A stretch of 40,089 bases of DNA from an uncultured Hyphomicrobiales bacterium. Its GTDB lineage: Bacteria > Pseudomonadota > Alphaproteobacteria > Rhizobiales > Xanthobacteraceae. Both the position numbers and the translations under genes were made by a program. A model generated the notes under the pieces. The model was not told the DNA's origin and searched no databases. It saw nothing but the letters and a program-made list of their open reading frames with translations. This document shows, piece by piece, positions 8,541-12,798 of the stretch. Where the stretch lies: contig CAIMEA010000021.1 of assembly GCA_903839845.1 (NCBI GenBank), positions 1 to 40,089 of the forward strand, read 5' to 3'. Numbering within the stretch: the stretch's first letter is position 1; every line of letters starts with the position of its first letter.

Positions 8541-8616
8541 TGGTGGAGCCAGGCGGGATCGAACCGCCGACCTCCTGCATGCCATGCAGGCGCTCTCCCA
8601 GCTGAGCTATGGCCCC
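8541..8616 (-). tRNA. tRNA-Ala (anticodon GGC)
   Basis: The minus strand reads a complete 76-base cloverleaf beginning ggggccatagctcagctggg and ending in an encoded CCA. The acceptor stem GGGGCCA pairs with TGGCTCC apart from one wobble position. The anticodon stem CCTGC/GCAGG holds the loop ATGGCAT, giving anticodon GGC, which reads GCC and GCU codons. The T-arm GGTTCGATCCC is canonical. It lies 61 bases downstream of the TIGR02300 gene on the same strand. No integrase or duplicated tRNA 3' end is nearby, so there is no sign that it serves as an attachment site. Confidence 0.97.
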
Positions 8617-10580: not shown

Positions 10581-11203
10581 TCATCGCCATCGATGGACCG
10601 GCGGCGTCCGGCAAAGGCACCATCGGCAAGAGACTGGCCGCGCATTACGGGTTGCGCCATCTCGATACGGGCTTGCTGTATCGCGCGGTCGGCAGGACCA
10701 TGCTCGACGCCGGCCACAAACTCGACGACAGGCAGGCGGCCATTGCTGCCGCGCAATCGCTTGACCTGTCCCGCTTCGATGAAGCGGTGCTCAAGGGCGC
10801 CGAGGCCGGTGAGGCGGCGTCCTTTGTCTCGGCGATCCCCGAGGTGCGCGCGGCTCTCGTGGCCTATCAGCGCGGCTTCGCGGCGGAAGCGCCGGGCGCG
10901 GTGCTCGACGGCCGCGATATCGGCACGGTCATCTGTCCGGATGCCGACGTAAAAATCTTCGTCACGGCGGCGCCGGACGTGCGCGCCAAACGACGGGCAA
11001 AGGAATACGCCGCCGCGGGCAAGGACGGCGACGAAGCGACAGTGCTGGCCGATATCCGCAAGCGCGACGAACGCGACAGCAAACGTTCCGCCTCACCGCT
11101 CAAGCAGGCCGACGATGCGGTGTTGCTTGATACGACCGGCCTTGGCGTTGAGGCGGCAGTGGCGGCAGCTATTGCGATCGTTGAGCGGATAAGAAAGCGC
11201 TAG
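10577..11203 (+). CDS. cmk: Cytidylate kinase
   Basis: A 208-residue (d)CMP kinase that converts CMP and dCMP to the diphosphates for nucleotide synthesis. The P-loop GPAASGKGT is at residues 7-15. The [12 protein letters not shown] segment, the DGRDIGTVI motif and the AKRRAKE lid follow in the usual order, and length is normal. Translation starts at a GTG that overlaps the aroA stop (GTGA), so the two are translationally coupled. The stop codon shares CTAG (11200-11203) with that of the convergent cysN, leaving no room for a terminator between them. In most proteobacteria rpsA follows cmk directly; here the sulfate operon intervenes. Confidence 0.95.
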
Positions 11204-12798
11204 CTTCTGCCCCACGGCGCCAGCAGCCAGATTCGTTCGTGGAAATAATAGAACGCGATCTTGATCACGATCTCGGCGATCACGATCGAACTGGCAATCG
11301 CGGCATGGCCGGTGACCAAGAGCGCCACCAGGAAGGTGACGACGCTGCCCATCACGCGCCATGTCACCGTCTTCGCCAGCGAACGCGCCTGGTTGGCGTT
11401 GATGCCGAACAATCTGTACAGATCGCGCGGCATCGGCACGGCGGTGATGGCGTTCGCACCGCGCGTCGCCGTAGCGGCAACCACCGGCACTTCTATCAAT
11501 CCCATCGCCACGGTGTCGTGCGTCTCGGCGTCGATGAGGATGAAGCTGCCGGTCTCGCGGTTCTGGTCATAGCCATCGGCGGCAAGCGGCCGATCGAGTT
11601 CGAGACTGCAAGTGCCGAACTCGTTGCTCATCAAGCGGTCAACGGATTTCACAGCCGCGTCTTCGCCAAGATCGATCAATTGCATCGGTCCGGCGATGCT
11701 CGCAGCCGCCGAAGCGGTGCCGAGCTTGATGTGATAGCGGCCCCCGGGCGCCAGGGTGCCCTGTCCCATCCAGAAAATGCGGGCGTTAAGGCGATCCGAT
11801 ACATGCGCTGGCCGTGCCGCTTCGGCGATCAGATCGCCGCGTGAGACATCGACATCATCGGCGAGCGTCAGCGTGACCGACTGGCCGACGCCGGCGCGGG
11901 AAAGTTCGCCATTGGCAGTGACGATGCTGGCGATGCGCGTGCGCTGGCCGGACGGCTGGACGAGGATTTCCATGCCGGGGCGAACTTCGCCGCCGGCGAT
12001 CATGCCGCAATAGCCGCGAAAATCCGGAGTCGGCCGGCTGACCCATTGCACGGCCATGCGGAAAGCCTGGTTGGCCGCGCGTGGCGTCACGTCGACGGTC
12101 TCGAGCTTTTCCAAGAGCGTCGGCCCGCGATACCAGCCGGTATGCGGTGAACGTTTGACGACATTGTCACCTTTGCGCGCCGACACGGGAATGAAGGTAA
12201 TCGATACGTCGCCCAGGCGATCGGCGAATTTCCGAAAATCAGACTCGATTGCCGCAAAGGTCGCCTGCGCGTAGTCGACCAGGTCCATCTTGTTAACCGC
12301 GACCACCAGATGGCGGACGCCGAGCGTCGCCGCGATCAAAGCGTGGCGCCGCGTCTGCTGCGTCAGGCCGGCTTGTGCGTTGACCAGAATGAGCGCGAGG
12401 TCGGCGGTCGAAGCGCCGGTCGCCATGTTGCGCGTGTATTGTTCGTGACCGGGCGCGTCGGCGACGATGAATTTGCGCTTTTCGGTGGCGAAGAAGCGAT
12501 AGGCCAGATCGATGGTGATCTTCTGCTCGCGCTCGGCAGCCAGGCCGTCGAACAGCAGCGAGAAATCGAGGTCCTCGAGCGCGTCGGTCAGTTGCCCGGT
12601 ATCCTTCCGAAGCGCGTCGATCTGATCGTCGAGCACCAGCCCGGCGTCGAACAGCAGACGGCCGAGCAGGCTCGATTTGCCATGATCGACCGAGCCGCAG
12701 GCGATGAAGCGCAGCAGGCTCTTCGCTTCGTGATGATAGATGATGGCGTCGCGCTCAAGTTCTTTGCTTTGCGCCTTCGGGTCGGCCAGGATCGTCAT
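11200..12798 (-). CDS. cysN: Sulfate adenylyltransferase subunit CysN with C-terminal DUF2061 membrane domain
   Basis: A 532-residue protein. Residues 1-435 are the CysN GTPase, the regulatory subunit of ATP sulfurylase: P-loop GSVDHGKS at 35-42, DAPGHEQY from 114, NKMD at 169-172, then EF-Tu-like beta-barrel domains. It couples GTP hydrolysis to formation of APS from ATP and sulfate by CysD. After a 35-residue linker, residues 471-532 match DUF2061: [14 protein letters not shown], two hydrophobic helices (about 482-497 and 500-518) and YYFHERIW. Where bifunctional CysN/CysC proteins carry APS kinase, this one carries a predicted membrane hairpin, so the complex may be tethered to the inner membrane. 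That last point is inference. The ATG at 12798 shares one base with the cysD stop (TAATG). The open frame continues upstream inside cysD and is not used. Confidence 0.93.

Follow-up and report, generated by a model that had tools for sequence, protein, structure and literature searches.

The fused cysN gene and its operon

When analyzing a window of 40,089 nucleotides (the whole of the stretch studied here) from an uncultured Hyphomicrobiales bacterium, we found an operon with the order cysH-cysD-cysN that converges with cmk and ends in a cysN gene carrying an unusual C-terminal domain (Table 1). The cysN gene is a single open frame on the minus strand, with its ATG at 12798 and its stop codon at 11202-11200, and cysD overlaps its start by one base. 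A tRNA-Ala(GGC) gene lies elsewhere in the window (8541-8616, minus strand).

Table 1. Coordinates of the sulfate activation genes and of the parts of the fused protein in the window
Feature	Position	Strand	Basis
cysN-DUF2061, sulfate adenylyltransferase large subunit (GTPase) with C-terminal DUF2061, 532 aa	11200..12798	-	PF00009, PF22594, TIGR02034, PF09834
DUF2061 domain (PF09834), residues 474-524	11227..11379	-	Pfam match; predicted helices 470-495 and 499-526
Linker, residues 442-467	11398..11475	-	pLDDT <50 in model; no constraint in genus-level pN/pS
cysD, sulfate adenylyltransferase small subunit, 309 aa	12798..13727	-	TIGR02039 485.1 bits, NF009214 529.6 bits, both above cut-off
cysH, phosphoadenylyl/adenylyl-sulfate reductase, 268 aa	13720..14526	-	NF002537 236.5 bits (cut-off 154)

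Pfam assigned GTP_EFTU, GTP-eEF1A_C, and then DUF2061 to the protein. From its sequence it is best identified as a CysN: it matches NCBIfam TIGR02034 with 547.1 bits (cut-off 336.1), has a GTPase domain (PF00009, E 2.2e-39) with GTPase motifs that can also be read by eye, and is encoded next to its CysD partner. The first-pass annotation had described a CysN fused to DUF2061, and the fusion was borne out. DUF2061 scored 67.4 bits (E 1.5e-18, cut-off 23.1) over positions 1-51 of 52, at residues 474-524 of the 532-residue protein, which is 475-525 in the numbering of the scanned frame P0001 with its one extra leading residue. The last 66 residues scanned alone scored 72.1 bits (E 4.9e-20). This was the sole PF09834 match (E 0.001) in the source genome, which is 99.76% complete.

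The annotation was also right that DUF2061 stands where CysNC carries its C-terminal APS kinase (CysC), and the Pfam scan gave no PF01583 match in the protein. We considered whether it could be a bifunctional CysNC and rejected this: besides lacking PF01583 at the C terminus, it is covered by the CysNC model PRK05506 only from residue 16 to 447, with 590.9 bits against a cut-off of 715. Compared with CysN (TIGR02034) and CysNC (PRK05506), the protein is alike in its GTPase and downstream domains and in having a CysD partner in the operon, but it has DUF2061 where they hold nothing or an APS kinase, and its neighbor is cysH. The CysH protein scored 226.9 bits with TIGR02055 (APS_reductase), slightly below the cut-off of 235.3, and its CC...CxxC cysteines, read by eye, suggest an APS-reducing type.

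Spread and constraint of the fusion

We searched 60 genomes, the source and its relatives, of which 36 belong to the same genus, the source included. CysN and DUF2061 were found in one frame in 12 of the 36 genus genomes and a free-standing DUF2061 in two, with none in the other 22 (E 0.001), among which are incomplete assemblies; each of the 14 positive genomes has one PF09834 match. CysD lies directly upstream of the fusion in at least 11 of the 12 genomes and CysH is listed in at least 10, counts that are minimal because the listing of genes drops overlapping frames. Beyond the genus, the fusion was found in Bradyrhizobiaceae MAG-132 (L045), G127, and G273, and G117 (L276) has a weak fused match of 20.9 bits, under the cut-off. 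In a sample of 297 genomes from the order of the window, 35 have PF09834, and 4 of these, the source and G117 among them, have it fused; these four fall under three family codes (f1, f5, and f42).

CysD-CysN-DUF2061 is also encoded on three complete Microvirga plasmid records, one of Microvirga lotononidis and two of Microvirga sp. VF16. CysH is upstream of the fusion in both VF16 records and was not found within the stretch examined in the M. lotononidis record. On the latter plasmid, cysD-cysN-DUF2061 is preceded by a 260-aa gene (L477:2453-3235) that matches APS_kinase in part (54.1 bits) and resembles the viral kinases described below in length. In a CysN tree of 54 rows, from which the Microvirga rows were left out, a single branch (SH-aLRT 92, quick method) sets all 16 fused rows apart, with G117 on a long branch of unsure placement.

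Median pN/pS over 66 genus pairs was 0.222 for the CysN core, 0.862 for the linker (residues 437-468), and 0.428 for DUF2061, so that in the genus the domain is kept under constraint while the linker drifts. Because one frame recurs in 12 of the 36 genus genomes and the pN/pS of the domain is half that of the linker (0.43 versus 0.86), a frameshift or assembly artefact, or a pseudogene, is ruled out. The frameshift joining two genes, for which we had looked as a refutation of the fusion, was not seen. As L045 and the complete Microvirga plasmids carry the one-frame fusion too, an artefact has practically no chance of being the explanation, and we regard it as refuted.

The fused gene is not always the only cysN. 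In the source genome a cysD-cysNC pair lies on a different contig, and in seven genus genomes the fused form is accompanied by a further CysN match, which in one of them (G031) is partial and under the cut-off. The fused CysN is the only CysN match in G029, G030, and G032, each 99% complete, and in the less complete G006 and G024. In the three nearly complete genomes it would therefore have to act as the ATP sulfurylase.

Sulfur-linked DUF2061 in genomes, plasmids, and viruses

DUF2061 (PF09834; also COG3205 and IPR018638) is mentioned in published work on several bacteria. The excerpts we read report an iron-responsive DUF2061 gene in Caulobacter, one that figures in a regulator study in Shewanella, one (PA3237) required for calcium-dependent polymyxin resistance in Pseudomonas, and an entry in a mutation table in Neisseria. 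They give no molecular function for DUF2061 and deal with neither sulfate nor CysN, and CysN with DUF2061 was not the subject of any further paper found, judged by title and abstract opening. The fusion may stand in domain-architecture databases. Among 14 well-known control genomes, PF09834 was present only in Caulobacter vibrioides.

We built five local profiles (CysD, CysN, CysH, CysC, and sulfite reductase) from genes found here, with examples identified by Pfam, and scored a DUF2061 locus as linked if such a gene was fused to it or at most 1 kb away on the same strand. Among the named genomes whose domains most resemble the fused one (best 80 of 569 relatives), 40 of the 79 loci with a called frame were linked: 29/31 in Bacteroidota, 9/39 in Pseudomonadota, 1/2 in Methanobacteriota, and 1/2 with no phylum, with 0/4 in Actinomycetota and 0/1 in Bathyarchaeota. 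As this set was picked by likeness, we took three wider samples. PF09834 was found in 31 of 296 Bacteroidota genomes, and 22 of 30 loci, one each from 30 genomes including the seed genome of L062, were linked. The archaeal sample, drawn from the phylum of G693, has PF09834 in 39 of 243 genomes; 30 loci were read, and 3 of the 29 with a called frame were linked, all three with the order CysD-DUF2061-CysN and one of them from the seed genome. The Pseudomonadota sample had PF09834 in 91 of 398 genomes, and only L325 and the fused L369 were linked among the 94 loci with a called frame (95 loci from 90 genomes, with the window and the weak fusion L276 left out). How far DUF2061 is tied to sulfur genes depends on the lineage, the link being strong in some and missing from most, and the Pseudomonadota and archaeal samples rule out that all DUF2061 are sulfur proteins.

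The linked loci take several forms. Bacteroidota have cysH-cysD operons with DUF2061. DUF2061 stands beside CysH and sulfite reductase, with no CysD adjoining, in L118 and L120 and beside sulfite reductase alone in L078 and L117; in the L078 and L118 genomes, a CysD-family match is found on a different contig. Actinomycetota locus L050 has the order cysD-cysNC, a sulfotransferase-family gene on the other strand, DUF2061, and a second sulfotransferase-family gene, and was not scored as linked, its CysN being slightly more than 1 kb away. DUF2061-CysC fusions were found in Roseivirga (L119), G849 (L236), and on a Gemmatirosa plasmid (L484). They resemble the window protein in joining DUF2061 to a sulfate activation enzyme and differ from it in that DUF2061 is N-terminal and the partner is an APS kinase. 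Long frames ending in DUF2061 (L277, L278, L318, L338, L249, and L106) gave no further Pfam match and were treated as frames with overextended starts, not fusions. Other neighbors, read by eye, include one thiolase-like gene cluster, recognized by N-terminal sequence, next to DUF2061 in 18 of the archaeal loci L244-L273, and LysR-regulator-like and catalase-peroxidase-like genes flanking it in L339-L341.

Twelve plasmid records have a PF09834 match: the three Microvirga fusions, the Gemmatirosa plasmid, five Mesorhizobium plasmids, and three (Bradyrhizobium, Phaeobacter, and Halobellus) on which no sulfur neighbor of DUF2061 was seen. All five Mesorhizobium plasmids carry DUF2061-cysD-cysNC, and in the four that are annotated (L473, L476, L479, and L480) the order is nodC-nodI-permease-sulfotransferase-DUF2061-cysD-cysN. 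NodQ is the rhizobial name for the bifunctional CysNC.

On viral contigs we scanned the best 80 of 362 DUF2061 relatives (L393-L472). In 49 of these 80 loci (23 clusters at 80% identity) a gene for a P-loop kinase (GLPGxGK) abuts or overlaps DUF2061, with an end that ranges from 38 bases past the start of DUF2061 to 8 bases short of it (for example, L417:57-1075). An HxGH nucleotidyltransferase-like motif is present in the C-terminal half of 41 of the 49 kinases. PF01583 (APS_kinase) was above its cut-off in all six kinases scanned (five of the 49 and the truncated L394) and was the top match in four, and none of five reached the NCBIfam APS kinase cut-off. Going by these sequence matches, we call the viral gene APS-kinase-like only. 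The remaining 31 of the 80 loci have no kinase, and their other neighbors include a peroxiredoxin-family gene. A collection of 50,697 named phage records gave one DUF2061 match, with neither a kinase nor, by annotation, a sulfur neighbor.

A tree of 194 DUF2061 domains, thinned from 280, splits into 127 and 67 rows (starred, 98); the larger branch holds all 53 sulfur-linked rows, the smaller none. The sulfur-link label changes 19 times on this tree, compared with a shuffled mean of 47. As the domain has few alignment columns, we used only this deep split and set finer branching aside. Sulfur-linked rows conserve W480 (98%), R481 (98%), T488 (100%), E/D509 (99%), K513 (98%), and H520 and E521 (both 100%), while R481, T488, and K513 are found in only 49%, 34%, and 41% of the 141 other rows. 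The window domain falls in the 127-row branch, its position inside being weakly resolved, and has the motif WR..G[ST].DT...E...K...HER.W except for the first-helix aspartate, which is D in 83% of sulfur-linked rows and V487 here. Compared with free-standing PF09834 proteins, it is alike in its full domain, predicted hairpin, and conserved K, W, and HExxW, and differs in being joined to an enzyme, in lying in the sulfur-linked branch, and in lacking the usual aspartate.

The first-pass annotation had further proposed that free-standing DUF2061 proteins act in sulfate assimilation. This stands for one branch, with its links to genes of sulfate activation and reduction, and is too wide for the family, in which 67 of the 194 rows form a sulfur-free branch and hardly any of the Pseudomonadota loci are linked.

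Membrane docking and other candidate roles

When the window protein was modeled, the CysN body came out with good confidence, the linker (residues 442-467) at pLDDT below 50, and a helical hairpin (470-495 and 499-526) at moderate confidence, consistent with the two-helix domain of the first-pass annotation. The helices are moderately hydrophobic: hydropathy gives one segment above threshold in the window protein and none in several genus members. Natural two-copy DUF2061 proteins occur in Pseudomonadota, Bacteroidota, and archaea (L056, L076, L097, L122, L025, L231, L232, L246, L253, and others), and one was modeled as four helices (pTM 0.55). DUF2061 has no solved-structure relatives by sequence (best E 0.22), the two-copy model has no PDB fold match at E 0.001, and its best matches in a viral library are phage DUF2061 proteins.

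On balance, we lean toward reading the window protein as a functional CysN that has, in place of an APS kinase tail, a hairpin belonging to the sulfur-linked branch, by which CysD-CysN would be docked at the membrane. Judged from sequence and model, docking would be the best mechanism for the fusion, given its spread and constraint, the predicted hairpin after a linker, and, for the sulfur-linked branch, the recurrent links to CysD, CysN, CysC, and CysH and a polar motif of its own. Basic residues mark the cytoplasmic ends of membrane helices (the positive-inside rule), and those at both ends of the hairpin suggest that both are cytoplasmic. The DUF2061 hairpin would then insert in the inner membrane, with CysD-CysN hanging from it on a linker of about 30 residues, and the conserved polar residues R481, E509, K513, H520, E521, R522, and W524 may form a homo-oligomeric or partner-binding surface. 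A free-standing DUF2061 would play this part as a small subunit in its own right. The benefit would probably be APS or PAPS made and handed over locally, to CysH in assimilation or to sulfotransferases in sulfation of the Nod-factor type.

Several observations speak against docking. Its helices are only moderately hydrophobic, the domain has more conserved charged residues than a plain anchor requires, and its place next to CysH or sulfite reductase with no CysD is not explained by docking of an ATP sulfurylase. CysN functions without DUF2061 elsewhere, as in the Escherichia coli and Corynebacterium controls, which have CysN and no PF09834, and CysD is present in 18 of 58 Bacteroidota genomes without DUF2061. 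The viral loci without a kinase (31 of the best 80 of 362) and the sole matched phage record point the same way. The corresponding excess of CysD in Bacteroidota genomes with DUF2061 (21/22 versus 18/58) was not used as evidence for a link; having a sulfur neighbor was the ground on which 21 of the 22 genomes had been selected, which makes the comparison almost circular.

The conserved polar residues within the predicted helices would also suit a role of DUF2061 as a small oligomer that channels or transports sulfate, sulfite, or an activation product, with the fusion coupling transport to activation. The tandem two-copy forms, which suggest a dimeric unit, and the adjoining sulfite reductase genes with no CysD fit this as well, as does G032, which has the fused CysN and neither a TIGR00969 match over the cut-off nor a SulP match. 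So does a Na/Pi-cotransporter-family gene (one gene-cluster member scanned) upstream of free-standing DUF2061 in 10 loci of the sulfur-linked branch, mostly Mesorhizobium, among the best 80 of 569 relatives (L057, L064, L066, L067, L072, L079, L080, L081, L086, and L123). We nevertheless consider a channel unlikely. A sulfate ABC permease is over the cut-off in 8 of the 12 fused genus genomes, compared with 6 of the 24 other genus genomes, and the channel reading also has to reckon with the missing PDB match. In 40 Bacteroidota genomes, SulP is present in 19 of 22 with DUF2061, and of the 18 that have CysD but no DUF2061, 17 have SulP (22 of the 31 DUF2061 genomes were compared, the linked genome G948 being left out), which rules out DUF2061 as a simple SulP replacement there. 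The suggestion in the first-pass annotation that the complex docks near a sulfate transporter finds no direct support: the cysHDN operon of the window has no permease, the sulfate ABC permease genes of the source genome sit on another contig, and SulP does not follow DUF2061. A transporter link of another kind is conceivable, given the Na/Pi-cotransporter neighbors.

DUF2061 could instead be an assembly, stability, or regulatory factor for CysDN, CysC, or CysH, with its membrane place secondary. It is tied to several enzymes of the pathway and not to one, and an Rrf2-regulator gene cluster (one member scanned) is near it in at least 15 loci. The position of the fusion, after CysN or before CysC, and the unconstrained linker in the genus point to bringing proteins together, not to a defined contact, and we give this reading a low probability, a shade under that of a channel. 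A passenger tail, that is, a small membrane gene fused by chance with no role in sulfur metabolism, is disfavored and quite improbable. The distance of most Pseudomonadota DUF2061 from the five sulfur families (2/94 loci linked) would fit it, as would the iron-responsive and stress settings in the excerpts cited above, but links and fusions recur in at least four phyla and on viral contigs, and the fused domain is under purifying selection.

The fusion is confirmed as real, conserved, and under constraint, while the interpretation in the first-pass annotation is supported in part; the fusion draws attention to a branch of DUF2061, a family with no established molecular function, that is tied to sulfur genes. 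More tentatively, and at somewhat less than an even chance, this branch could be an unnamed membrane subunit of sulfate-activating systems in bacteria, archaea, rhizobial Nod-factor sulfation operons, and phages with an APS-kinase-like enzyme, its partner being revealed by the fusion. Sulfate activation is soluble enzymology in textbooks; if the proposal is true, a conserved membrane module would add spatial organization to it. The uncharacterized DUF2061 would gain a testable role, which truncation of the tail in the fused protein could address directly, and there would be a handle on Nod-factor sulfation and on the viral cassette.
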